Notes under the pieces: model-generated | Database searches by the model: none | Told to the model about the DNA's origin: nothing | Seen by the model: the letters and a program-made list of their open reading frames with translations, nothing else | Assembly: GCA_021234155.1 (NCBI GenBank) | Contig: JAJEKV010000023.1 | Span: forward strand, 4,049,638-4,113,637 | DNA: 64,000 nt | From: Isoetes taiwanensis | Taxonomy: Eukaryota > Streptophyta > Lycopodiopsida > Isoetales > Isoetaceae | Direction of reading: 5' to 3' | Position numbers and translations under genes: made by a program | In this document: in pieces, positions 29,721 to 56,672 of the stretch | Position numbering within the stretch: the first letter of the stretch is position 1 | How the letters are laid out: each line of letters begins with the position of its first letter

Positions 29721-30149
29721 GCGGTCACTGGCATTATTTGTTCACTGTTTATTTGCCTTATGAACCTTTGTATTTTTTTTATGAAACCTCAGCAATTTCG
29801 TCCCCCGGAGTTTTGAATAATGCTGGTGCGAAAGCATCTACGATGTTTGGTGCTTTGGGGTCTAAGTTAGATATTAGGGGTACAAAAGCACCCGTCCGAC
29901 GCTCTTGCTTTTAGGTGCTTGATCTGGCAGGCTTGGGGGTGCTTTGGAGAGCTGGAACACGATGATCCGCTTTTAGCAAATTGCTTCCGGATGAAGACAT
30001 GGCTGCTCCAAAAATCAAATTCGGTTCGAAATGATCCGGGCGATCCTGTTTTGAGATGGCGGGTCTGCTTTTTGAATTCTTTTTGTGGCCGGAATGATCA
30101 TTCAAATTTTGTACCTCCTCCCGAACTAACTGTTCTTTGTAGATCACGG

Positions 30150-32990
30150 TTTCTCCAGTCTTTGCAAAATTCTCAGACATCACGATCCTCAATGGATCAA
30201 TCGGTTTCTGATTTGGATGAGGAAAAAGAGACTCAAAGTTTTCCGGAAATTCAAGCCGAGAGAAGAAGGCAATCAAGGCAAAAGAAAAAGGGAGAAAGGG
30301 AAAGAAAACTTGCACCCCGAAATTGAACGAGGCCCCGAAAGTGCGAGAGGCTTCAAGAATTGTCCAAAAAATGGACCCATTATTTCAAATCGAAATCACA
30401 AAGCCTTTGAAAGAAGGGGATAAAGCAATGGTGGTGCAATGATTTGTGAAGAGAGTGAAGCGAAATTGCCAATCGGAAGTGGATTTTGTTGATTATGAAC
30501 AAAAGCAAGATCATGAAGAATGTGATTAAAAATGTTCGTGAGACATTCAATGAACAAAAAGAAATTAAGGAAGACGGATGTATTGCAAGCAAGAAAGTCT
30601 ACTTTGCAAATGGTATCTTCATCGGCAAAATCCATCAACCAATCTCACGTCGCGTCTCCTTCATATATCTAGAAAATCTGTTGTTGCTGCAAACCGGAAG
30701 AAGAATAATGGCGCACCAAGAATGTGGTCCGTGGTCAATGTTTTCAAGGAAAAAGAGGTGTGATGCATTGAGTGACGAGGTTAGAAATTGTGTTTTACAA
30801 GTTACGGGATGAGAAAAACACGAGTTTCACCATACAGAAGCATGTGAGAAAGTTTGTTACAGCGGATGGCGATAAAATTGATCATCCAATACAAGCTGCT
30901 TGAAATATCTCGGTGATTTCCTGGCTTAGTATGTTTCTTACATTTGCATATATCTGTTTCTATATAGATCTTCTTTGTTTTGCGGTTACGAATTTTACAT
31001 GAACTTCAAGAAGGAATTCAATGACATTAAGATTACCCAAATAAGACATTTGAATTGTTGAAGCCATCATTTGTGAGGGCTAAATGAAAGAAGAAACTTG
31101 TTGCCGCCAATATCACATGCACTTTGAATATGTGATGCAAGCACTCAACAAAATCGAAACGTGATCCAAATGGCGTATAAAGATTGCAACTGTACTTGTG
31201 CTGTTTGTGGTGATGGTAACTTTTGTGCAGCCAAGAACCATGTTTATAAATCCACTAGTGATTTTTGGAGGCAAATGATCTGCCCTAAGGATGAAGATGA
31301 AGAGTGGCACAAACATAATTGTCTCAGTGTGGCATGCAAGGATTGTGGATTGAAAAGGTACTCTTTTAATGTTAAGATGTTTGAACATTCTATTTTGAGT
31401 TGTTAAGATGATTGATGCAACATCTTACAAACAAATTTCTCAGTGTGGTCTTACAAACAAAGTTGCCAATATGTCCAAAGGAGAAGGAGGAGTCCGGATT
31501 ACAAAGTGGAGTGGAAACGGTTTGAAAAGGTAGTGTATTTGGCATTTGTGCTTTTAAATGATTTTGTGCTTGTGATTGATTGTTGTGCTTGTGCTGCAAA
31601 CTTACAGCTGATCTTTGGTTTTCAAAAACAGCAAGAGGTTGGTTACATGAAGGAGACCACCAAGAAAAAAATGGCAGGAAAGAAACCAGCAAAGGTAACT
31701 AGACTTGCATACAAGAAAGAGAGCCTGCCCCAATTCCAAAGAAGATGCTTCAAGACAACGGTACAATTCATCCCACACAAATTATGTTGCACAATTGCTG
31801 GCGGCAAAGCAATTCGGGAAGTGCTTGGATACTTTTCCCTCAAGGTGCGCTTTGTCTCGGTTATTGATTTTGCTGAAAATTACAGTTTTAAAATTCAGAA
31901 AGAGGCACAATCTTGCCAGCGGCACCTGATCATCGCATCAATTTTGGTTCATATCACATATAGACATGCAACCCGGATGAGATAGAAGATATGGAAGCTA
32001 AGGAAGCAGAGAAAAGGGAACTAGAGAAGGAAAAGCGAAAAAGAAAGAGGAAGACAACTCAGGATCATCGCCAGTGAATGAGAGGAGAATCATAAAGGAA
32101 GTACATTTTTATATTTCAGATGATAGAGATCATAGCAAGTGAGTTTGTACACCATTGCTTGAAAGTTCATGCAGATCGGGTCGAGAGTACAAAAATATTT
32201 TTGTACAACAAACATATTTTGGAGTGATGGTTGCACATCACAGGTTCAAAGGAGCAAGACCTTTTGGTATTTAGGAAGGAACTATGTCAATAGTGAAGGA
32301 ATTGAGTATGAATGGAATTTTTTGCCCGGCTCTCATGGGAAAGGAGAACATGATGGACAAGGTGCAATCCTAAAAAGGATTTTGGCAAGAGAACAATTGA
32401 AGTATGATTCCCCGAAATTGAGCCGTGCCAAAGACGCTGGGATTTCATGAATTGGTATATGATGAACAACCCACCGACCAAATATAAGAAGGTAAATTCA
32501 ATCAGTACCATTGCATTCTTCTTCATTTGAGGTGACATTTTTTACGCTCTATATTGCGTGGTTTTTGGCATATTGAACCCCGAAAATGTAGACAAATCTG
32601 AAAAAAGAGGGAATGGAGGTCACTTTGTGGGAGCTCTAAACTTCATTCCATCGCACCATGTGACAAAACAAATAATGCAAAGTTGCCCACAGGTGCCTCT
32701 CTTGTTTCTCGTCCCTTTTGCTTTCATGGAAAATGGGATGATTGCATGAACAAAGCTCGATTGGGAGCTTGGTCCACAAATGAACTGAAGTTGAAGAAAT
32801 CTACGTAAAACAATCACCAACAAAAAGCAGCTCAAGATGAAGATGAGGATGAGGATGAAGAAGAGGATGATGATGAGGCTAATGAATACCTCGCCTCTGT
32901 TCTAGAAGTTGGAGATAACTTTGTTTGTGAAATGCATCCGTGAGGATGAAGAAGGAGTTGACTTTTATGTTCTTAGGTGTACGTGAGACT
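30150..32990 (+). pseudogene. DDE-like transposase family with SDG/HGKG motifs, copy 1
   Basis: Plus-strand fragments in order: a basic N-terminal stretch; IKNVRETFNEQK (about 30522); a Cys-rich segment CAVCGDGNFC...EEWHKHNC...CKDCGL (31195-31355); PQFQRR...FIPH (about 31730-31780); VIDFAENYSFKIQ (about 31860-31900); ILVHITYRH (31940-31970); IFWSDGCTSQ (about 32215-32240); SHGKGEHDGQGAILKR (about 32333-32380); CPQVPLLFLVPF (about 32684); an acidic run; and ANEYLASVLEVGDNF followed by EEGVDFYVLRC (about 32880-32985). The pattern IDFAENY ... SDG ... HGKG..DG matches uncharacterised transposase-like proteins of animals and non-seed plants. The aspartates in the first two motifs are candidate catalytic residues. 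At least six frame changes make it inactive. Introns may explain some of them, for example 31533-31607. The superfamily name is uncertain; Sola-like is only a suggestion. Confidence 0.65.
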
Positions 32991-33949
32991 AAAAAATACA
33001 TTGTTAGATGCATATGAAGACTCATGGGGTTCTCAGATTTGGTATGGGAGAAGTCATAGTTTCGCCACTACTACAAGCGCATTGCATGCACTCCACTTTG
33101 AGTTATTAGTGGACAAGCTACGGTTAAGTTAGTGTGTACAAATACCTTATTAGACAAGGAAATTTGATATGGAGAGTCTTGGCAACAACAAGTTTAAGAT
33201 GAGTGAAGAGACATGCCAAAAAGTGATGGCATCCCTTCCCCGTAGAGTGCGAACACCGGCCGATCGCTTTTTTTTCGCCTGCCGGCAGCGGCACATCATT
33301 CACATGTAAAGTGGCTCATTCACATGTAAAGTGGCTGCTACATTGTTTCTAACAAACCTATTGTTTCTAACAAACCTATCAATGGAAGCTAACAAATTCT
33401 TTTTGTTGCACGATATTTGTAGTCCCCGACCGACTTGATCAATGTACCGCCGCTGGTGCTTTTGTTTTACGCTTGGTTCACGGACGTATAATTGTTTCGT
33501 AGTTTATGCTTAACCGGGGTTCCTCCTTCGCTTTGGTCTTTTGAAACAAATGGTGGAAACTTTTCAAGTGTTCAATTGGGGACCGCTTCAAGACAATGCA
33601 CAAAGTAAATACTCTTAAACCTTTTTACATGCATATGTTCAAAGATCGGCTTCATATACGTGCTTTGTTTGTTTAACCAATTAGGATTTGGACTTCATGC
33701 TCGATACGAGAGACAAGCATAGGAGAAAACCATTACATTCAAATATAAACTGACAACAATTTTGCAAGTAGAAACTCTGTATGTGTGTAAATATTATATT
33801 CATTAGATACAAAATTGTTACAATATATGTACAAACTCGGTATTAACCCCGGCTTGGTGTAATCGCTACGCTACATACAAAAGTTAAGTTACATAAATAT
33901 TGAAAAGAGTCTATAGACTTTATTCTCCTTCGGTGAGAATTTCGCTGCA
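32991..33949. other. Spacer between DDE-like copy 1 and the HAD remnant
   Basis: Contains two short direct duplications: TTCACATGTAAAGTGGCT near 33298-33335 and ATTGTTTCTAACAAACCTA near 33341-33377. No gene is recognised. This is where termini of the upstream element would be expected, but I cannot identify them. Confidence 0.5.
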
Positions 33950-35105
33950 TCACTTGAAGTGCCTGACGCCACGAATAAGAGTAGTATCTTGTGTTTTATC
34001 TTCTCTTGCGTGCTCTTCATCCTCGCTCATTGACAAAATCAAGATATTACCTCGCAGGATTGTTATTATTATCTTCATGTACTTTATCTCCCTACCGCAT
34101 CGTAAGATGTTTATACTTATATCATCTATCAAGCCTTGTAGCTTAGACATCTCCCGGCTACCAACTTGTACTTTCGCTTCTATTTTCTCCCAAAACATGC
34201 TCCTTCAACAACTGCTGTTTATCCGCTTTCTATGTTGCTATCATTTTTATTATGAGCCGATGCGCAGGTTACCTCAATTGCTTCCTCAGGCCAAGCAACT
34301 TCTAGGTTCCTCACAAACCAAGTAATTCAAATCAAACAACATACAAAAAATGCAACTAAATGAATTGAAAGCAATGACATTACTACAATCACTTCAATAG
34401 CATAACAACACAACCAAATGAAATTAAACAACATACCTTAACAATTTCCTTCATTAATCCTAATGCTTTTTGAGAATAGCCACTTTCCACCCTCGCTAGT
34501 TCACTTAGATGGTCACCGTAGTTTCCAAGTATGTCGATGTCCTCTTCTTGAACTTTATCTTCAACATAACGCCGGCAACCACTTTGAGGATTCTTGGCAT
34601 TGAGCCAAGTTTGCAGAATGCAACAAGAAATTGAAACCTTTGTCATTGATGTCATTATCAAATTTTTTCAATTATGAAGCAAGTGTCTTGTGGGGACAAG
34701 AAAGTCTTGTACAATGAGTCATCAACTAGCACTACCTCCCCTACATCCTCAAAAGCCTCATACACTTTACAATTGGCTTCATAAGCACCGCTTGTTCTCG
34801 ATTCCCCGGAAAACTCAAAAGGCATCACCAAGACTCTTTCTCTCGACCCCCAATGAACTTGAACCTTCCTATAAAGGAAGGTGGCACTAATCACATTTAG
34901 GATTTCTATGATGTTGTGCTTCATCATAGAAGACCATATGGCTACCCCCAACCGCAAAAGCACCCTTCTAAAAACTTTATCACCGTCCAAGCACAACACC
35001 ACTTTCCCCTCGCGATAATGCTTCTTCAAATCTGTTGGAATTTTAATTCGTTCTTTTTGGAAATGTGCTCACCTAACTCCATTTAAGTCTAGGATGACAA
35101 GTTTT
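33950..35105 (-). pseudogene. FCP1/NIF-like HAD phosphatase remnant, copy A
   Basis: On the minus strand, VILDLNGV (about 35075-35100) matches HAD motif I (DxNG) of FCP1/Dullard-type phosphatases. LRLGVAIWSSMMKHNI (about 34905-34955) matches motif II. VLVDDSLYKTFLSP (about 34700-34740) matches the acidic motif, and QTWLNAKNPQ followed by YVEDK (about 34560-34620) fits the C-terminal part. A downstream frame (33950-34198, MFWEKIEAKVQVGS) may continue the protein. FCP1-type domains dephosphorylate serine or threonine using the first motif I aspartate, which is present here. Frames change at least twice. It lies convergent to DDE-like copy 1, and the same pairing recurs at 44.7 kb. Confidence 0.65.
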
Positions 35106-37200
35106 TTCTAAGGGTCTAAAGAACATTCATAAAACAAAAACTCAAACATCAACAATTCGACATCAAATAAACAAATTTTAACAAAAACAAATTAGTTCAC
35201 AACTTCAAATTGTTGCCTTTCAACAAATTAACACAAGTGTCATTTCAAAAGTTTTCAAAGTTTTCGAGTTATCAAAGAACTTTCAAGTGTTATTTCAAAG
35301 TTTTCGTGAACTCGCATAATGAACCCGACACTCCACCGTTAACATTTTGTAAATAACATTCCGAGGATCACCTTTTTGAGGTTGTGTTGGCATCTTCTTA
35401 GGGGCCTACCCTTCTTCTTCTTATCCACCGCAGTGCTTGTACTTGTTCTTCTTCTTCTTCTTCTACATTCTTCCCTTTATCACAGACCTTTTGTTGCAAT
35501 GATCGCCACTACCACCCGTTCTTTGTCCGTGATCTAGAACTTCATCAACCCCCGAGCTTTCTCCCCGCAGCTTCTACTTCTCAACCTCTACTTTTATGGT
35601 GCTCACAACCTGTATGTAGTCCTTTCCAGGCTCTTCTTCTTCTTCATCATTGCCAACCACTAGTGCACGTGTCACTCTCTTTTGGGCTTTTTTCTACCAA
35701 TCAAATCATTAAGGAAACTAGTTAGAATAGACATGAAATAAAGTTTACAAAAACAAACACATAAAAAACACCAAATGGTTACCTTCTTAATGCTTCAACC
35801 GCTGTTGTAACAGACTTAGTGATGCCACGCCTTTGTAACAGTTTTGGTGATGCCACAAACCAAGCTAGAGTATAATCGTGAACTAATGGAGACTCAAAGC
35901 CAACAAATATTGGTGAAGAAGTTGATCGTTTGTAGGGTGAAGCAAAAGCACTACTAGTGCCTCACTTCCAAACCCATCGCCGATGGCTACCTCAAATCCA
36001 TCTTCAGTCTAACTTCTAAAACCAAGTTCCAATAATAAACAAAATCCCTCGAACTTCCTTTAAGCACTGAAGCATGCCTTCTTTTCATACGTATACGCAA
36101 CATGCCAAGTGATAGGCATGTTCACATGGCAACTTCATACTTTCAGTATATTGTGATTGAATAATAATCCACATGCAAAGACATGAGTTCTCCATAAAAC
36201 CTCGCAATCTGCGCCTTCATAGTCATGATAGAGATTCGTGAAGTGTCCCCGTGCATCAATCGCCAGCGCCTTCTAAAATGTACCCCCGCTTGAAGTCCAT
36301 TCTAAAGAGGCTTTTAGCCTTTGCTTTTTCTCCCTTTCGCCTACCGCCTAACATTCTACCTTTTGGAAGGCGTTTTCAGCTTTGGAGCGTAAGTAAAGCT
36401 CTCCACTTTATTTTATGCTTCAAATCAAGCAACCCAACAATTATTCGCTTTATCCGCTGGTCATTCAAAGCGTATAACCTTTCTCAGAGGTCTACTCACC
36501 TCCTTCTTTGCTATATCAATCATTACTTGCCGCCCATAGGGAGTTGTTGTCAACCCAATCTTTACTAATAATCTTAGCCAACTGCTTGATGTGCTTATTC
36601 AACTCGCTTCCAACTTTTTTACTTCCTCATCAATCAAAGAAATATTGAAACTACAATTGCAAAACGTAGTAAATCATTTGGCCGACTTTTCGCTTTTAAT
36701 TCCATCCGGTGGTGTTCTTTCTCTCCTCAAGGCCGTGAGGTGTGCTTTGGCCCGGCGGATGTACGGTTTTCATTTTTAACATCTTCTTTACATCCATATC
36801 ATCCTTTTGTTTTTTCTCACCAAACAAGAACCTGCGCGACTTGTATGCATCCCAATTTATCTTATGACCCTCATGATCTTGCCTCGCGACGCACCACAAT
36901 GCTCCCCGCCAAATGCCAAAGCAACGAAGTTTCCTCAATTGCTGTTTGGTAATCCCCGCTCGTGATACGTGAACTCCCACCAAGTCCTCCAATTGTTGCT
37001 TCCGCATGAGTGCGAATCTAAATAAATTTTTATTTTGCCTTTCTTTAAAGGATTCGAATGGTTCCGGCCCATACACCGCTCCAAATCTTCTTTCAGCCGA
37101 GATCCCCGCAGAAAGCCACTCGCCACAGGAATAATCCCTTTTCCGCCATCGCGAAAAAGCAAAGTGAATTAACCAAAGAGCAAGGTAAGCAAGTGCTCTA
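35106..37200 (-). other. Low-complexity and unassigned sequence upstream of HAD copy A
   Basis: CTT-rich tracts (35417-35465, 35633-35646) read as acidic/Glu runs on the minus strand, and the 36696-37076 minus-strand frame (126 codons, MYGPEPFESFKERQN..., with RKQQLEDLVGVHVSRAGI) looks protein-like but matches nothing I recognise. This could be the N-terminal part of the HAD-containing protein or a separate gene of the same element. Confidence 0.35.
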
Positions 37201-38719
37201 AGGAAAAATCTCTAAGGCGAGGGGTACACCGAATCAGAAAATAGGGTATAATGTGCTGCATAAAGAGATCAATTATCGTATTTCCGGGCGCTGAATGATT
37301 ACCGGGTCCATGTTCTCCCTGCATCATTGTTTCTAAAAGGCGCTACGGAAACGAGAGAAGGTGCTAAGAATAGTCGCCAAGGCAGCTTAATCTCGCTTTT
37401 CTTGCCGCTTTTTTGTACCCCCAATATATCTAACTTCTATCCCCTTGTATCTCCTAGAGAGCTCTATAAAATCCCCCAAATGAAGAATGTAAAAAAAATT
37501 TTGGTGCATCGCTTTTCCCGCTTCAGATGCATAATCTAAGGTAAAGCAAAAGGCAAAGTTAAAGATAAAATGTGTCCTTGTTAATGAAGTTAAAGACAAA
37601 TAAAAAGCACTAGTAGATACACACGCCACCGCAGATAACTACGCTAGCAAGATATGGTTCATACAAAGGGAAGGAAAAAGCCAGAAGGCCTGTGAAGAAG
37701 TAAGACAAATGTCGCTGTCATTGAAATTGGAGAATACTAGTTGAATTTTGTAGTGAATTTTCTCTCGTAAGTACAGCTTGTAATGTGTGATTTTGATTCC
37801 AAAGATCCATCATTAGAATAGTTAGGCAAAACAGTAAAACATTTGATAGTGCAAATGGAACTTTCATGTGTTAGGTGGTAACATCCAAAGATTTGATAAG
37901 TAGGCTACCGTTGCCAGCTAAAAGATGGCACTTCGAGCAGAGTTTCTTTTCATTTCTCCCCTATATACACATACCATCTGATGCTTTGATTGCAAATAAA
38001 GAATGGCTTCCATTTATCACAATAGAAGGAGTCGCAAGAACTTTCCAGCTTGCTTTCATCTTTCTTGCACATCCAATCTCTTTGTTATTCTCCAGGTTCA
38101 AGACCTTTCCATTCCCTTTTGAGTATAAATCTAAATCTAATCCCTTTGATTCCCTTCTGTTATGTTCCTGAACCATAAAGAATGTACCAAGAAACCTTCT
38201 TAGAAAGAGATAATTAATACATCAAGGGATTGCCTTTGCTACTAGCTTTTAAAGAAGCAATTTCCTTCTTCAGTGAAAAAACGTATTCCTTATAAGAGAA
38301 AAGGGAAAACTCTATGCAAGCACTTGCTCCAGTCTAATATTTGATAGAGTTGAGGCGAGTAGCCGGCTTAGAGTCAAAAGAAACAGACAGACCAAGTTCT
38401 AACGATGGAAGAATAAGTGGCTATGGGCACAAACATAAGAACAGATAACCCACTTACAGATTCGGTAGTTCCAGAATGCCGAAATAAACTGATTTGAAAA
38501 TGCCCTACTCTCCCCTGTCAAATCAATTGCAAGGGTAGATCGATACAAACACAAATTGGTCGCAACAAAATAAAATAAAACAAATACCCCTGGAACTTTG
38601 TCCGCATAAGGACGACGGATCTCGAAGGATATTGGGTGCAAAATCGGTACTGGGTAGCAGAAATCACCGTCCGTACGCCGCTTACAAGTGCTTAAAATTG
38701 ACGTGTTTTAAACACGACG
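37201..38719. other. Unassigned intergenic sequence
   Basis: Only short open frames without motifs occur here (for example 37875-38171 plus). No repeat, RNA gene or domain was recognised between HAD copy A and DDE-like copy 2. Confidence 0.45.
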
Positions 38720-40860
38720 TGCATGATTGATCAATTGACATGTGGCCGAAAGCAAATGGTGAAGAATTTGAAGGAAACAATGCAAGAACATAAGTATGAG
38801 AGGAATCATGACATGCTTCGCGGGTAAGGAAGTCCACCCCGATAATGGCAAAGAAAGTAAAAATGGTGTCAAGCCATTGAATCAAAATGTAGGGGCTGAT
38901 TATTGTTCGAAGATCCCCTTAAAAAAACAATTTCAAATGCTTTTCAAAGAAGGGTGCAAGCTAACAAAGGGAAGGACCTTGGTCAATGTTCGTGAGGAGG
39001 AAGCGGATGGATAGCATGTTAGATTACAATACGAGAAGCTGCTATCAAGTTCGACAGAAAATACAAAGCTTCTCCATACAAGAAAAGACGTGAGGGAGGT
39101 ATGTATCGTAGATGAATAAAGATGGAACATCCACCCACCTTCTTGAAGTCAGCCAAGTAAGTATTCATCCTATATTGTAGGGTTCATTATATGTAGCATT
39201 TATTTGGCATTCACACGATTTCCCCGTAGCTTGCAATTCTACCCCTCAGTTTAGAGAGGAGAATCCTCATATCAAAAATTGCATTGCAAACTTTTTGAGA
39301 GGTTGAAACCGAAGTTTTGTAAGGAGGATGCGAGAGGCATACATGCTCGCTGCATGTACCAATTTGAAATTTGAATACATCATGCGTGGATTGAAATGTA
39401 CCTCGAGAAAATCGGGTGAGGTGGAGTTCATGACAATTGCAACCCGCCATCGGTGGAGATTTGTGGCCCCGCCCGTATCGTGCAGCCAAGGAGCATACAA
39501 TCAAGTGCAAATTTGATTTATGGAGACAAGTGGTATGCAAAGAAAGGTGATGATGAGGAGTGGTTTGATCATAACCGCTTGATGTTAGTGTGTAAAAAAT
39601 GTGGGTTGATAGAATTAGAAAATGTCCACGTGAAATGGATGGCACGGGTTCATTACTACTTGGAAGACATTTGAAAAGCAACATGTGGACCAGACGTAGA
39701 ATTCAGTGGATCCAAGAAAGGCTTGAGGTACAAACCTCGCCTTAAGATTAGTACGTATGAGAGAAGTCCCAAAGAGTTTCAAGAGGATGTGAAGAAGGTA
39801 ATATTAGATTTTGTTCCACACAATTACATAGCACATTGGCAGCCAATCTCGGGCTTTAAAACAAAGGTGTGTCATCATTTCCGTAAGATACAATTGTATC
39901 TCGCTATTGATTGACTTTTTGCGTAAAATTACAAAGATCAAGATCCGTAATGAGCCCCAACCAATGACCGCATACGTACTCCAAGTTTCTATACTCTTGT
40001 TCACATAACATATAGACATGACAAAGTGCCGGATATTCCTGCTCCCCGCAAGGCATAAAAGAAGACCGGCCCAAAGAAGAAAAAAAAGAACGTAAAATTG
40101 GAGCAGATTAGGAATAGACTCAACAATGGTAGGAAGATCATAAAAGAGACTCACTTTTACATTTCATGATAAAGTGCATGACTCATTATTTGTGGAACAT
40201 CGCCTATAAAAGCATGTTGCATGGCTTAAGGAACAGGAAATAGAGTATGAGAAGCATTGGGTTTGAAGTGATGGTCGCCATCACAATTCAAGTCGAAAAC
40301 CTTTTTTTTTTCTTAGGCGTACTTCACAATGAATGACAAGGAAATAGTGTGAAACTACTTTGCCACCGCCATGGTAAAGGTGAACATGATGGTGCGGTGT
40401 GCTCTATCAAAAGGTCGCTAAGTAAGGAACAACTCAAACCCAATGGTGTGCAAATCGAGGCATGCTAAAGATATTGTTTGTAAAATTTATGTGTACATAT
40501 TTCAGCACCGTTTGATGAAACAGATGAGATCAAAAGATATATTTTTTAAAATTGAACCTCGCTTGTTGTGGCAAACATGGAAGAATATGAAATTGAAACA
40601 CTTAAAGGCACAAAGAAGATTCATCAGACGCACTTGCCGCCAGGAGTAGACCAAATAGGTTTGCTCATATAGATGCCCCGCCATGTTTCTCGCTTTGTTT
40701 TGCATGGATCAATTGGGACTCTTGCATCAATATAGGTAGATTTGGAAAGTGGAGGTAACTGACTTAAAACCAAGAGTTGAGAAAAAAAGGAGACTCTTGA
40801 ACACGCCAATGAATGGATCAAGAATTTGGTAGAGGTAGGTGACAATTGCTGGTAGAGGTA
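38720..40860 (+). pseudogene. DDE-like transposase family with SDG/HGKG motifs, copy 2
   Basis: Co-linear with copy 1 at 30.2-33.0 kb but well diverged. Matching segments: MVKNLKETMQEHK (about 38758-38796) with IKNVRETFNEQK; GDDEEWFDHNRL..VCKKCGL (about 39550-39610) with DEDEEWHKHNCL..ACKDCGL; SPKEFQEDVKK..DFVPH (about 39767-39822) with the PQFQ..FIPH segment; AIDF-like then NYKI (about 39904-39945); ILVHITYRHDK (about 39993-40023); SDG at about 40268; RHGKGEHDGAV followed by SIKRSLSKEQL (about 40370-40430); and HANEWIKNLVEVGDN (about 40799-40845). Frameshifts and stops are numerous. The divergence implies separate insertions or an ancient duplication, not a recent one. Confidence 0.6.
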
Positions 40861-41730
40861 GGTCGCCTTTGCTTGCTGGGCAACGCCCGAAGTTCTCCCC
40901 GTGAGGCTCCGATCTTGTGCTAAATCCTTACTCCGGCGAGCGCCGCTCGCCCCCGGCTAGCTTCCAAAGCAACTTGGAATCCTTGTCTCACAAGCGCGTG
41001 GCGGCTCTCCGAACCTCCCCGGCTGTGAGGGCTGCCCAGGCTCCCTCGCCGCGGCCTTAGCCTCCCCAACCTCGCCTAGATCCGGTGACAGGTTACGAAA
41101 GTGTCCCCGCCTACCCTGCCTCGCCCGCATCCCAAATTTCCATATAGTCAACACCTGCAGGTCTACACGCCTCATATCCGCAGAAGCTCCTCGGGCGGGT
41201 ATTGATGTCTCACAAATTGTAGCAAGTGGATGCTATCATCTCAGCCTGGGCCGTGACGCGACATCCTCCACCTGCGGATTCGCCTCTTTTTCTCGCACCA
41301 ACCGCCAAGGCAACACATCCGAGATGTTATGTTCTCCACCTGCCGGGAGGCCTACAAGGCGGGGTAATCGCTGGGCCAACCCCCGCCTGATGCGCGGCTC
41401 CAAGGTTCGACCGGGTAGATTGCCTATGTGGCCCGCCTGTCGGGTCGACTAGGGCCTTGCCTCGGCCTCTTCATGGAAGACGCCTCTCCTCTACCCTGGC
41501 CTCCTTCCCTTGGTGGTCCCGCTTCATGGTCTTCCTGCAGGGCTCGGGCCTCCAGGGGGCTCAACCCGTGGTTGGTGTGTTTGGGCCTTCCTAGGATGGG
41601 TTGGTGTGGTCTGAGGTAGCTCACCAACCAAGTGTGGGTCCACACACGGACCTGTGTCCGTGGCCATGACTTGGGGTATGACTTGGGCTTACCTACCCCT
41701 CGATATCCGGGTGTGTACCGGCCGCCAAAA
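40861..41730. other. GC-rich island without recognised gene
   Basis: This is clearly richer in G and C than the rest of the window and contains many CCTCGCC/GGCC motifs. Long open frames on both strands (for example 41424-42077 minus) reflect the base composition and show no domain. It directly precedes the 178-181 bp tandem repeats. Confidence 0.5.
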
Positions 41731-42620
41731 ACCCTAGCACACAGCCCGGAAAAATGCAGATTTGAGCACTGAAACAAAGACAAGCATGCAGGTATCATAC
41801 ACCATTGAAAGCTTCTCGAACCAGCTTCCAACAAGCCCAAGCACATGAAAATCTGACACCGGATGTGAGAGATACAAATCGCCGAAGTGTCTACCGATTG
41901 CCACGTAAACCCTAGCACACAGCCCGAAAAGTGCCAATTTGAGCACAGAAACAAAGCCAAGCATGCAGGTACCATACACCACTGAAAAGATCTCTGAACC
42001 AGCTTTCCAACAAGCCCAAGCACATGAAAATCGACAATCGGATGCGCAGAGATATGATCGATCAAAATTCGCCGCAAGAAGATCTAGACCAATCAATACT
42101 TACTAAAAAACATACGCTAATCCCTATATTGGTGTTCTGACTTTCATCAACAACACCATCGAACTAGGGTATGAATTAGTAAAACATTCTCGTAACCTTC
42201 AATAAGAGTACAACACACACCTTTCAACACCGCTGCGGCCAAGGCCAACAACGGCATCGCGAGGGCTATACTTCTCAAAGAAGGAAGAAGAAGGGCTGCC
42301 ACAAAACCCTAGCACACAGCCCGGAAAACAGCAGATTTGAGCACTGAAACAAAGACAAACATGCAGGTATCATACACCTTGAAAGTTTCTCCAACCAGCT
42401 TTCCAACAAGCTCAAGCACATGAAAATCCGGACACCGGATGTGAGAGATACAAATCCGTCGAAGTGTCTACCGGCTTGCCACGTAAACCCTAGCACACAG
42501 CCCGAAAAAGTGCCAATTTGAGCACGTAAACAAAGCCAAGCATGCGTATCATACACCGTTGAAAGATCTCTGAACCAGCTTTCCAACAAGCCCGTGCACA
42601 TGAAAACTGACACCATATGT
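41731..42620. repeat. Tandem 178-181 bp repeat, two blocks of two copies
   Basis: Units starting ACCCTAGCACACAGCCC begin at 41731 and 41909 (178 bases apart) and again at 42306 and 42487 (181 apart). Each unit contains TTTGAGCAC, AACAAAG.CAAGCATGC, ATACACC and ACCAGCTT(T)CCAACAAGC. The two blocks are separated by about 230 bases of different sequence (42076-42305). The unit length is near that of many plant satellites, but four copies are too few to call a satellite array. Confidence 0.85.
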
Positions 42621-42639
42621 GAGTAATATTAACGGGAAA

Positions 42640-44699
42640 AAAGGGCCAAGATTCTAGGATAAAGGGCCTTTTTCCTTATAAAAAGTGGACGCTCAAATAA
42701 AGGAAGAGAAGGGGCTATTATTATAAGATTTTTCCTTACCTTTATTATGCATGGTGTTTTGGAGAAAAGGCCGACAAAGAAAATATAGCATGGTACCCGT
42801 GAACAAAGGGAGAGAGATGGCTTACATAAAACAAAGAAATCTTGGTCATGAATAGTAACTTGTAGACCATGAACAGGGATTTGTGGGCTTAACCCCGCCG
42901 CCGATCCGAAAAGTCGAGATATTTAGCGCCAGCCGCCAATCTATATGAATTGCAAAGTGGATCAATGGCGCAGCCGAGATCCGTCTTTATGAGATAGTGA
43001 GAAAGTCCGCCAACCGAGATGATGCGTAAGCCGGTTAACCTCCTCCCGCCTTTGTTGTCGAACCGAACAGAAAACCTATTAAGGAAAAACCTTAGATTCC
43101 TTGTGAAGCGCTTTCCCTTCTTGCACATGCATGTCGTTAATCGCTTGAATAGTTCCCTATAAAACAATGAATCGTATCAATACCACTCATATTCATAAGG
43201 CTATCCAATTCATAAGGCTATCCAAGGTGCCCGAGCAAAAGTAAATTTCTGATGAAGTAGAAGCACAAATACAAAGCCTACTTCTACAAGGAAAAAGTTG
43301 CAAAGCAGATATGCCTCAATTTCCATACATCTATGGTAATATTAGTTTACCACATTTACATTTTACATTTACCCCTGCAATTGTTAGAATATGGATTTCG
43401 AATAAAACAACCACAATCTTGAATCAAGATTTCAATAAGTCCTTACCATATAAGATTGCCACAACAATTCAACTTAACCAAAAATCGGAGCAACAAGCTT
43501 AAAATGGCAACAAGCTTAAAATGGCAACCAGATTTGTAAATAGCACGCCTCAAACTTAGACTTACAGATATAATATTATCGCTCTCGACTCAAACTCACA
43601 AACACGCTTTGTGATCACGGGCTCCATCACAAAGACCCTCGTAAATAACCCAACAACAAAAATGGGAGATTTACTAGTCACCGCCACGCCAAAAGCCCTG
43701 GTTGTTCTTACTTTGCATCATAGCCTTGTAATGCATTACCGCCCGTGATTATGACCTCTTTTTGGGCTTCAATATCATTCACGATATTCGAGAGCAGGGG
43801 CAAAAACTTCAAGGCACATGGAGATGATATGATTATGGCCAAAAAAAAATGAAGAAGGAGTTCCATGAACTCCTACATTTACATGACAGTAGTTCGCCAT
43901 GGACGATGCTTCCAAAACAATGACCCACTTATATTTTCAGGGAACTTGACCATAGACCTTCTGGATCACGCTTTTACCGGGTAAGACACCAAATATGGTC
44001 ATTTCATCCTTCTATTCAACAATTCAAAATATAGCAAAGCAACAAAGATGACAAGAGACACAAGTTTTTATCGAAACAAGCAACAAGTCTCAAATCCGCC
44101 CGAACTCCCGACTCGACTCCAAATCCAATCGCAAATCGCTTTGGACTCGGCCCAAATCCATCCGAATGGGGCGGAATGGCCCGCAAATGTAAATGCAAAA
44201 TTGAATACCTTTGTGGAAGCTAGTTCACCGTATAACAAGGACGAAATCTCCAAAGAACCAAACGGCACAAACAAAACCTAGAGACCTTCTCCATTCCGGG
44301 TTTGGATCTATGTTTCAACTCTAAGTGTTTTGCTTTGATTTTCGAGATCGAAAAACCATAACCCATAGATCTAATTTTGGAGTTAACAAGAACCCTAAAT
44401 GAGCTGCCGAGCTTTGCATGTCGAAAGCAAAAAAAAAATGTAATAAAAAAAAATAGAACTTAAACGGAAAAATATATATGATATATGGGTCTACACTATT
44501 GAAAAGATGCATTAAAATTAATTCAAGCGTTATGCAAATACAATGCGACTCTAGATGTACTAATTAGTAGGCCTTGTGCACACGCCCATCAAATCATATA
44601 AAACCATTGGAAAACCGCATAAAAAAATACAAAAACCCCCTATTATTATGCTACATATTCTTCACCAAGAACTTCATTTTTTTCCTCGGCCTTGGCCTC
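42640..44699. other. Unassigned sequence between the tandem repeats and HAD copy B
   Basis: A 92-codon minus-strand frame (42889-43167) is rich in Arg and Lys (CKKGKRFTRNLRFFLNRF) but matches nothing I know. A 77-codon plus-strand frame lies at 44048-44281. Simple A runs occur near 43842-43850 and 44429-44453. No RNA gene is seen. Confidence 0.4.
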
Positions 44700-45240
44700 G
44701 GCAGTATTTTTCTATCTTTGGGGTGAGTACCGTTAGCACTTCATCATAAACATCCATCTTGAATGCGTGTACTAGCAGCGTAAGTTTCCGTGGACCGCTA
44801 AGGTAAGACTTGTATAATGAATCATCAAGAAGCAAAGTCTTACCTTTAAATCTTGGTATGACTCATATATTTTCAAGTGGCTTTATCATGATCGACACCA
44901 GTGTTTGTTAGGGTGGTGAAAAACCGGTCTTCACACATTTTTCCCGGCCCCCATACAAATAGAAATCTGGCCCCTCAAATGACATAGTACTTGCAGCAGA
45001 CATCTTCCACATTAGAGAGTTGCATTGATGACCATATACCAACACAACACTTCGTAACAAAGTCTTCAAGAAGAACACCGCCTTCGGTCCTCAATATCAC
45101 TTTTTTCGCTAGTGTATGTCATTGTCAATCCCGGATTCCAAGCGCATGTGTTCATTTGCACCAAATGTTTTTACCAACACACCATTTAAATCCAAGACAA
45201 TGACTTTATCTTTTGGTCGCCAAATCAATATTTAGTACGC
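44700..45240 (-). pseudogene. FCP1/NIF-like HAD phosphatase remnant, copy B
   Basis: On the minus strand, VIVLDLNGVLVKTFGANEH (about 45155-45212) is a clear HAD motif I with both catalytic-type positions (D and N). Near the other end, KTLLLDDSLYKSYLSGP (about 44800-44850) is the acidic motif. Its DDSLYK is identical to copy A (VVLVDDSLYKTFLSP). The middle is frameshifted. It has the same strand as copy A and is convergent to DDE-like copy 2, so the DDE/HAD arrangement appears twice. Confidence 0.65.
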
Positions 45241-47360
45241 TTGGAACATCCTTAATACCTACACAACAGAATTACTACATGAGTAAATAGATGAAGATAA
45301 AAAATGAAAAATGGGTTGAATGTGGAAACCTTTCTCAGACAACAAAGCAGGATTCTCTCCGACTCCAACAAATCAACTGGTAATCCTACAAAGAATGCAA
45401 CAAAAGAAAATCAATAATATTCAATGTTTTAAGCAACACTAAGTTGTGGCCTTGGCCAAAGAATGTCCACACCCGACTTTCCGTGGTTATTAAGGGCATC
45501 AATCACTTGTTGAAGATCGGCTCACCCGAAACTTGAGGGCCCTCGACTGCATTTTTCTTCAACACACTTGATAGGTGTGGTGTCATGATTGAGACCGCTT
45601 CCCGCATCTTTAGCATACCTACTTTTGTTCTCTTCTTGTAGCCCCGAACAACTTTTTGCTATCCTCCGCCTTTTACCCCTCTTTGTTCTTTTCCCGCTCT
45701 TTCCTTTTGTAAAAATCACCAAGTTGCCCTCATCCAATGGAATTACTCCTCAACTTCCTTGGGTGCTTCAGCGTGTACACTCTGTCTTTTGTTTTTTTCC
45801 ACAACCGGTGCCGCGGTTTACAATCAGGTAAAGCATATAATCGGTTTATAACTTCTTCTATAGCTTTGGACAACTTCTTTGACTGGTGGTGGTGGTTCTC
45901 CTGTTGTATCTAAATCAGTCACAATTGATCAGATTTATAGGACTTTTGCAGTGTGTAGTGCATCTTCAAATGGCACCATTGTCCTTCTTTGAACCCCTCG
46001 GCAGTGAGACTCAATTGCGGATCGATTAACACATCCTTTTTGGTGTACTATTTGAAGCACCTCGAACATGGCCAAAACCTAGCTCGCCAAATACACCCTC
46101 CGCACCTTCTTAGGCAACCATGAATACATTGTCCTCCTCTCAACAATGAACAACAAGCTATAATGATACTCATGTTGGCAATTCAAGCTAAACTTAACCT
46201 CGTAAGCTTTTAGTGAATTCCGCACCACATGTCGGCAACATGTATAAAATGGATCTTGCACTAACAACTTATCTCAGATAATAGTAGAGATGCTAAATGT
46301 TGCAGAGTATCCATTTTAGCTTTCCACAAATTGTTTATGTAGAAATGCGTAAGTCTCTCGCTCTTCTTCGAGAACTTTTAACTCCTCCTCAAGTTTGATT
46401 TTACATTTGACCTCGCTCATTAATGATGTAGGGTTCATTGCTTTTGTACCTTGTTCCCGTACAAGTTTCCATCCGACAGTTCTTGCTCCAAATCTTTAAT
46501 TTCTACCTCCAACTCACGCTTTGATTAAGCTTGAACTCCTCCCCGCTTTGTAGCCAAATCATTTGTGGTCTGCCTTAAACCTGTTCTCTTCTTCCAACAT
46601 CATTTTCTCAGAAATCGTGAGGCCTTCTCATTGCCTTTCAGCTCACTTCCCATCGCCGTGATTCTTTGTGATAAGTAAAACTGATTTTCCAATCTCCTCA
46701 GATCGCATTCTCTAAGGTTTTATGTGTTCATCACATGCACCGATCTCATTTGATCCAAATTGCCACCTTTTGGCTTTTGCCTTCATTTCGCTTTTTCCTA
46801 CATGTGCTAAGGCAACATCCTGGCCTCTTTTTACTTGTCTATTGTTGTGGTATTATCTTTGGCATTGCACAAAGAAATACAGCCCAGCTTACTTTGTGTT
46901 CCTCAAAAGTAACTATTGATCTAGTGCAATTTTCAAACGCAAAAGCAAGGGGCCGCTTGCTTTCTTACTTTGTTGTGACAATTCTTGTAGATTTTTCTAC
47001 AGAGTGTTTCCAACTTCTCTTGAAGATGCTCCTTTGCATAGTGCCATTTTATCTTTCCCTTGTTCAACTTCTTTGTCCAAACAGAATCCCAATCTCGATC
47101 CGCGGACATTATTTTCCAACCAAGTTTTTTTCCTCGCGGGCTTCACCCCAATTGCAAATTTGAAAATCATCCGCTTCCCATGCCTCCATCATCAACAAAG
47201 GAAAACACCGATCCGAAGTTTTCGCTACTTAGGGAAAAAGGAGGGAGAAGGGTGTGACTGCTTCGGACGTCTCATGAAGTTTCAAAGACTTAAAGTGCTT
47301 AAACGCTGGCCAAAAGTTGTACCCCACTAGCGCATTTTACACCCTATTGATGAAGATGGG
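45241..47360 (-). other. Degraded coding-like sequence upstream of HAD copy B
   Basis: Minus-strand segments look coding: DVLIDPQLSLTAEGFKEG leading into HLKMHYTLQKS (about 45930-46035), and heptad-like Glu/Leu/Lys-rich stretches at 46330-46700, such as KRELEVEIKDLEQELSD, suggesting a coiled coil. Stops and frame changes are common. It may be the N-terminal part of the HAD-containing protein or a companion gene; I cannot name it. Confidence 0.35.
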
Positions 47361-56458: not shown

Positions 56459-56672
56459 TGGATCTACCGGCCGGTTACGAGTTTGGAGTTAGGATTTAAC
56501 TTTGGAGTTTGGATCTAAGAGTTTGGAGTTCGGATCTGCTACCTTGGCGAGTCTGGAGTTCAGATTTGGAGTTTGAAGTTTGGAGTCTGGAGTTTGGAGT
56601 TCTGATCTACTACCTTGACGAGTATGGAGTTCGGATCTACTACGTTGACGAGTCTGGAGTCTCCAAGAACCT
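56459..56672 (+). repeat. Degenerate tandem repeats of GAGTTTGGAGTT(C)GGATCT
   Basis: About ten imperfect units built on GAGTTTGGAGT and GGATCTACTAC lie upstream of the Crypton-like coding region, in its probable 5' untranslated part. Larger units CGAGT.TGGAGTTC.GATCTACTAC.TTGA recur near 56560, 56600 and 56635. Confidence 0.75.

Follow-up and report, generated by a model that had tools for sequence, protein, structure and literature searches.

What brings a decayed transposase gene and a decayed phosphatase-like gene together, tail to tail, twice in one stretch of plant DNA? The question is raised by a window of 64,000 nucleotides from the lycophyte Isoetes taiwanensis (contig JAJEKV010000023.1, positions 4,049,638 to 4,113,637), in which an earlier note, made from the sequence alone, had described two plus-strand DDE-like transposase remnants, each facing a minus-strand remnant of a HAD phosphatase. 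Translated searches (tblastn) and nucleotide homology bear out both pairs. Six-frame translation gives two broken plus-strand genes with the same conserved blocks, each faced by a broken minus-strand gene of the form DLNG...DDSLYK; the two motifs that the note had pointed out are present in both HAD copies, and both copies of the pair are interrupted by frameshifts and stops. The answer developed here is that each pair is the dead remnant of a cut-and-paste DNA transposon with two genes, so that transposase and phosphatase-like gene belong to a single element; we put this reading at a probability of about 0.93. We call its transposase gene A and the HAD-containing gene on the opposite strand gene B.

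Common termini enclose both genes

Seven 10-kb stretches of the genome, chosen for open HAD frames (loci L001–L007), were compared. In six of the seven the transposase gene lies tail to tail with the HAD gene; in the seventh, L005, a deletion has removed the core of the transposase gene but not its start. L005 also appears to be a mosaic. Likeness between pairs of copies stops at a 29-bp inverted repeat, 5'-GGGTCTAAGTTAGATATTGGGGTACAAAA, which is perfect (29/29) at both ends in L001–L004 and bounds elements of 7587, 7315, 7097 and 5804 bp, respectively. The ends of L007 are related, GGG(C/T)AAAAGTATG(C/T)TGGTGGGTA, with 28 bp at 89%. Element size is mostly 7.1–7.6 kb. Target-site duplications of 4 bp flank these copies, namely ATAG in L001, TAAG in L002, GAAT in L003, TAGA in L004, ATCA in L007 and, provided that its left end is set at one changed base, AGCA in L023; three short derivatives carry TGGA, ACAA and CATA. 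Over 13 end pairs the duplication is exact in 10, and 3 of 4 bases agree in window copy 1, L039 and L043. Second ends were looked for, and not found, in L005, L006 and L024–L026.

With the flanks of L001 joined, 40 of the 41 genome matches listed cross the join at 92–98% identity. For window copy 2, two places in the genome match across the joined flanks, over bases 7–240 of 240 and at 82–83%; these matches are gapped (217 versus 234 bases) at a position that the alignment output does not show. We read the matches across both joins as empty sites. Inverted repeats at both ends, a duplication of fixed length and empty sites, the features by which a terminal inverted repeat (TIR) transposon is recognized, were thus all found. 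The search for common termini that the earlier note had proposed yields inverted repeats with exact 4-bp duplications around both genes in seven copies, and its suggestion that the pair is one mobile element holds, since common termini, duplications and empty sites enclose both genes. Its extents have to be revised: the pairs are real, but the true elements are larger, spanning 29858–37443 and 38634–47344, and contain a further gene part upstream of each HAD.

Abundance and pairing in the genome

The scan covered the I. taiwanensis genome at 1,658,258,908 bases in 1110 contigs, with 150 of 3263, 150 of 1341 and 135 of 8867 candidates scored in the match lists. Pairing was counted from 150 rows of each of two HAD lists (151 and 152 matched) and from all 140 transposase rows, a few of which are fragments of one copy. 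A listed HAD lies within 10 kb of 46 of the 140 listed transposase matches, and all 46 pairs are convergent. Because the HAD lists are incomplete, 15 of the 94 transposase rows without a listed HAD were sampled by taking every sixth (a sixteenth, a fragment row, was omitted); a HAD at E 1e-5 or better was present in 11, convergent in each case, and 4 had none. The genome-wide tabulation that had been called for thus gives one orientation throughout, in 46/46 listed near pairs and 11/11 sampled ones.

The repeat end itself, with up to 2 mismatches, occurs 252 times in forward and 259 times in reverse orientation (511 in total), and a reversed control not at all. From the first 100 of these 511 ends, facing pairs within 15 kb were collected, and their HAD content was checked against 31 of the 150 HAD rows, rows on the contigs that had repeat ends in the list, and a few more. 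Twenty-four facing pairs resulted: four of 258–273 bp, two of about 2.16 kb, four of 3.5–3.8 kb, one of 4.27 kb, eleven of 7.15–7.56 kb and two of 12.8–13.8 kb. A listed HAD lies inside 10 of the 11 pairs of 7.15–7.56 kb and inside both pairs of 12.8–13.8 kb, and the eleventh (L039) also holds a HAD. All 13 inverted-repeat pairs of at least 7 kb therefore contain one, HAD content having been scored in every pair and transposase content in part of them.

Shorter derivatives that lack one or both genes exist. The 4.27-kb form (L043) has kept gene B and is missing the transposase core. Three of the ten shorter forms were read: one of 2.1 kb keeps the RING part of gene B, and those of 3.5 kb and 271 bp keep neither gene. 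Positions 60–330 of L042 and the three other listed pairs of 258–273 bp are miniature inverted-repeat transposable elements (MITEs) derived from the family, with the same 29-bp ends; L042 has the CATA duplication.

Gene A, a probable DDE-type transposase

The conserved blocks of gene A, WSDG and HGKGEHDG, and the order of its conserved acidic residues point to a DDE-type transposase of a group without a credible Pfam match. The spacing is D-119-D-39-E (or D-41-D) in L003 numbering, with the first D counted by hand; given that the third acidic block reads GEHDG, either its E or its D might be catalytic. Of four transposase frames, two drew no Pfam family and two drew families at chance level, and a profile search of the PDB gave nothing better than E 0.065. 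An NCBIfam IS3-transposase match to the N-terminal region (E 0.0014) fell far below the cut-off and was not used. GTDB genomes and IMG/VR, scanned with one eight-residue pattern, gave 11 and 3 matches, none of which was confirmed, an absence that is weak evidence because a single pattern was used.

Gene B, a larger gene that ends in a HAD domain

On the strand opposite gene A, gene B comprises, in order, an N-terminal domain, a coiled coil (judged by eye), a RING-H2 finger and a C-terminal HAD domain, which are probably exons of one gene with one spliced product. The RING-H2 (C3H2C3) pattern, C-x2-C...C-x-H-x2-H-x2-C...C-x2-C, occurs in 9 distinct copies from several subfamilies (L001–L003, L006, L007, L010, L015, L019 and L041). 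Gene B of L001–L004, L008, L009, L043 and window copy 1 also has a basic stretch around GRP, which we take to be AT-hook-like.

The HAD domain of open relatives matches the Pfam family NIF (PF03031) at 75.9 and 60.8 bits against a gathering threshold of 21.8. Its nearest PDB relatives are UBLCP1 (3shq, E 6.8e-13) and small C-terminal domain (CTD) phosphatases (E 0.0018 for 2hhl, and 0.0045); no Pfam ubiquitin-like match was present in the HAD frames scanned. Motif I reads D-x-N-G, not D-x-D-x-T/V, in all 21 distinct HADs of the window's element type (type A) in which it was found, one of them, L038, assigned to type A by sequence only; the pattern permitted N or D at the second position, so other forms could be missed. 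Among 12 other NIF frames, 8 are D-x-D and are treated as host genes, and the remaining 4 are element-type by sequence. The nucleophile aspartate is kept in the aligned open HAD rows and the second aspartate of motif I is an asparagine; the serine, lysine and DD positions, presumably HAD motifs II–IV, are retained in the rows that align with UBLCP1. The general acid of HAD enzymes is the second aspartate of motif I. With that residue lost, the HAD of gene B may hydrolyse its substrates slowly or only bind phosphoproteins. The proposal that the element carries a phosphatase is therefore right as to the HAD (NIF) domain and incomplete otherwise: gene B is larger, with coiled coil, RING and HAD, and its motif I is without the second aspartate.

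Selection on gene B and a probable exchange of its HAD

Ratios of non-synonymous to synonymous substitution (dN/dS) were computed for 21 HAD pairs and 21 transposase pairs, many of them saturated. The HAD gave 0.13–0.17 in six informative pairs (dS 0.14–1.2; 14/21 saturated), the transposase 0.15–0.22 in three pairs (17/21 saturated) and the coiled coil–RING part 0.18–0.23 in three pairs with dS near 0.9, four pairs being saturated. Since its ratio is like that of the transposase, the HAD appears to be conserved about as strictly and looks like a gene of the element. Judged by the dN/dS of its HAD, gene B belongs to the element and is kept by purifying selection.

The module has not always travelled with its neighbour, it seems. 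Between L006 and L007 the HAD has a dS of 0.92 and the transposase one of 0.20 (156 codons), and the HAD stretch (L006 6394–7437 versus L007 3003–3935) is 79% identical, compared with 88–92% elsewhere. The HAD being far more diverged than the transposase, an exchange of the HAD exon between lineages seems to have occurred.

A second element type with a related HAD

Some NIF matches belong to another repeat, a 14-kb transposon type that runs from L046 3566 to L047 7566 (contig C1043) and is also seen in L044, L045 and L049. Its HAD has the motif DMNGVLLKC, again D-x-N-G, and further open frames on the same strand have no Pfam match. The transposase-like gene of this type is divergent from the HAD and is recognized by Pfam DUF7869, with 162 bits against 26 for the L047 copy. 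Conserved acidic blocks and the termini suggest that DUF7869 proteins are transposases. The gene shares no detectable similarity with the transposase of the window type; between the HADs of the two types, in contrast, profile comparison finds a clear relationship (E 5e-20).

The arrangement was counted from 71 of 126 HAD rows and 50 of 123 transposase rows, apparent pieces of the same copy being dropped by eye and about 60 transposase rows at 37–41% identity left out. A HAD lies within 40 kb of 27 of the 50 transposase rows, in divergent orientation in 25 and in the same direction in 2; 17 of the 18 pairs within 15 kb are divergent, and 23 of the 50 rows have no listed HAD within 40 kb. One copy is bounded by 34-bp inverted repeats (94% alike) that begin ATGACATATTTAG and lie 14.0 kb apart with both genes inside, and AAAA stands on both sides of it, in an A-rich context. 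In the other copy fetched, a second end was looked for and not found.

In a tree, the HADs from the two element types group with each other and apart from the eight D-x-D genes (100/99), within the limits that long branches meet in it and that it includes no host D-x-N-G gene. Either one capture followed by exchange or two separate captures may lie behind the two kinds of HAD. Tentatively, and at somewhat less than even odds, plant DNA transposons may use the D-x-N-G HAD as an accessory module that can be swapped between them and that reads or erases a host phospho-signal, carried for example by RNA polymerase II, the proteasome or a silencing factor.

Weighing the explanations

Nothing found contradicts the one-element reading in the subfamilies whose ends are known. 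Two separate repeat families lying side by side, or a HAD element nested next to a transposase element, could explain why 4 of the 15 sampled transposase copies have no HAD match in the fetched 5 kb and why the HAD copies L005 and L043 are without a transposase core. Yet shared termini with target-site duplications surround both genes, 57 of 57 near pairs are convergent and 13 of 13 long inverted-repeat pairs include a HAD, so that we regard separate families as extremely improbable. Chance pairing and a nested second element are each ruled out by the common termini, again for subfamilies with known ends. Several observations nevertheless weigh against parts of the picture. Of the 15 sampled loci, L017 and L018 have no recognizable gene B, L021 has only its coiled-coil part and L011 a possible HAD tail, the last two being doubtful or partial traces. 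The ends of L009, L010, L012–L015, L019 and L022 were either not found or lie outside the stretches fetched, and it is the shared arrangement that places these loci in the family. No Pfam or credible PDB match ties gene A to an RNase H-like fold. The RING pattern was not found in, for example, L004, L005, L008, L009, L013, L014 and L023, some of which are broken or cut, and Pfam RING scores lie under the cut-offs (best E 0.00056). That gene B makes one product is inferred, and its phosphatase activity is uncertain, as hydrolysis may have been lost. The six informative HAD pairs are not independent, and high ratios occur at low dS: 1.07 for the HADs of L001 and L004 (dS 0.01), 0.83 in one transposase pair (dS 0.03) and 0.59–1.04 in three coiled coil–RING pairs.

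What gene B does for the element is a separate matter. In the mechanism that we favour for this abundant family, the gene A transposase would bind the GGG-ended inverted repeats and insert the element through a 4-bp staggered cut, of which the 4-bp duplications and the empty sites are the observed traces. Gene B would be an accessory nuclear factor: its HAD fold would bind or slowly dephosphorylate a host phosphoprotein (the RNA polymerase II tail, the proteasome or a silencing factor), and its RING would ubiquitinate that protein, favouring expression or integration of the element. We give this accessory role about an even chance. A HAD that is a captured host fragment, hitch-hiking in the manner of Pack-type elements without benefit to its carrier, would fit the retention of gene B in the short derivative L043, where the transposase core is not retained, and DNA transposons commonly capture host genes. 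Against a passenger stand the dN/dS of 0.13–0.17 over a dS range of 0.14–1.2 and the same place and direction of the HAD in subfamilies only about 35–48% identical in that domain; we find it decidedly improbable. Somewhat better placed, while still rather unlikely, is a structural partner for transposition itself in place of a counter-silencing factor, such as a second DNA-binding subunit that would use the HAD fold as a binding module. The AT-hook-like stretch of some subfamilies would fit DNA binding and D-x-N-G hints at lost hydrolysis, but the motif II–IV positions, as assigned here, are retained in the rows aligned with UBLCP1, which suggests a retained phospho-site.

Relation to known elements

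Titles and abstract openings of the literature, several rankings at their top only, yielded no HAD/FCP1 gene in a DNA transposon, and we could not find an earlier description of a transposase and a selected phosphatase-like HAD in one element. The literature retrieved for DUF7869 does not mention it. Among named groups, Sola is the nearest candidate, compared by description only. It shares the 4-bp target-site duplications and the presence in early land plants, being known from Physcomitrella, with sizes mostly of 2–9 kb and some above 15 kb (PMC10741241, PMC9033089). It is reported with a DDD triad, whereas here a GEHDG block is conserved in which E or D is possibly catalytic, and the portions of the published descriptions that were available say nothing of a HAD gene.

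Accessory enzymes as such have precedents, the closest of them in fungi. According to the available part of one account, IS3EU and other fungal transposons carry accessory TET/JBP or alpha-kinase genes (PMC12730594); there, as here, an accessory enzyme gene lies beside an opposed transposase gene. In IS3EU the accessory gene is an opposed alpha-kinase gene. The fungal TET/JBP genes, like the HAD, are a single class of enzyme found among transposon lineages that are unrelated but share one group of hosts. The fungal elements carry a dioxygenase or a kinase, in contrast to the phosphatase-like HAD domain with a RING in a plant host. KolobokP, as far as its description was available, resembles the present element in combining a DDD/E transposase with a second captured enzyme, a His-Me nuclease (PMC9587614), and differs in its long terminal direct repeats, its animal hosts and the use of a nuclease, not a HAD. 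The best PDB relatives of the element HAD, UBLCP1 and the CTD small phosphatases (PF03031, NIF), have D-x-D-x-T, unlike the transposon-encoded D-x-N-G domain, which comes with a RING finger.

The conflict between transposons and their hosts shows in the accessory enzymes that elements carry. If one lycophyte has a selected HAD protein in two of its transposon groups, phosphorylation would stand out as a target, possibly that of the transcription or proteasome machinery. In a repeat family of this size, moreover, HAD frames could pass for host phosphatase genes in annotation.

The two copies in the window

Copy 1, decayed and delimited as a whole (29858–37443, no strand assigned) by homology to L001, aligns with the complete element there at 89% identity over 7.8 kb of alignment, and its ends fit the inverted repeats. 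The left repeat (29858–29887, plus strand; GGGTCTAAGTTAGATATTaGGGGTACAAAA) has one base inserted relative to the 29-bp repeat; the right one (37411–37443, minus) is decayed and was read in the sequence. The flanks, TTTG and CTTG, are alike in 3 of 4 bases. The DDE-type transposase gene remnant spans 30192–33262 on the plus strand, with approximate outer limits, as traced by tblastn, motifs and nucleotide homology to L001 and L003. Within it, tblastn with relatives matches 31629–32435 (plus, E 7e-78), WSDG stands at 32220 and HGKGEHDG at 32334; nucleotide homology to relatives on this side covers 29858–33278. Gene B occupies the minus strand. Its end, the NIF/FCP1-like HAD remnant (34616–35107; tblastn, 61% identity, E 9e-70), contains KLVILDLNGV and VDDSLYK, the latter at 34726. 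Upstream of it lie the AT-hook-like motif KKKGRPLRR, found by pattern match (35393–35419), a decayed coiled-coil/RING part (35797–36465; tblastn to gene B of L002, E 4e-16) and an N-terminal part (36696–37211), an open frame inside the block aligned with L004. Its counterpart is an open frame at L004 7977–8885 (minus), the homology being judged by eye.

Copy 2, also decayed, belongs to another subfamily and runs from 38634 to 47344 (no strand assigned), as set by its inverted repeats, its target-site duplication and homology to L023. The repeats are imperfect (GGGTGCAAAATCGGTACTGGG / GGGTGTAAAATGCGCTAGTGGG), and TATT is duplicated at 38630–38633 and 47345–47348. L023, homologous to it in the same order and direction, belongs to the same subfamily. 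The transposase remnant (38751–40847, plus) has 88% nucleotide identity to L023, with tblastn pieces at 39774–40459 (plus, E 1e-7 to 1e-19) and HGKGEHDG at 40370. On the HAD side, 44658–47344 is 82.5% identical to L023 in nucleotides. The HAD remnant lies at 44680–45213 on the minus strand (tblastn, E 2e-10); its motif I region is KVIVLDLNGVLVKTFG, and its motif pair KVIVLDLNGVLV / LDDSLYK, with LDDSLYK at 44829. A coiled-coil-like part of gene B, recognized by homology to L021 and called a coiled coil by eye, occupies approximately 46238–46700 (minus); 46238–47352 is 84% identical in nucleotides to L021, where the matching stretch holds an open frame.

The earlier note had ascribed the wider spacing of this pair to tandem repeats at 41.7–42.6 kb. 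The repeats exist, as four copies of about 180 bp each within copy 2 (41728–42634, no strand assigned), and are not among the Tandem Repeats Finder results; an insertion that widens the spacing is plausible. The two homologous blocks lie 3.8 kb apart in copy 2, compared with 2.4 kb in L023. The repeats are housed in a GC-rich stretch (40900–42640), GC being 0.50 at 40001–42000 against 0.40–0.42 on both sides, and this stretch is perhaps a later insertion of another repeat. Elsewhere in the window, positions 56477–56660 hold tandem repeats with units of 71 and 30 bp (GAGTATGGAGTTCGGATC...).

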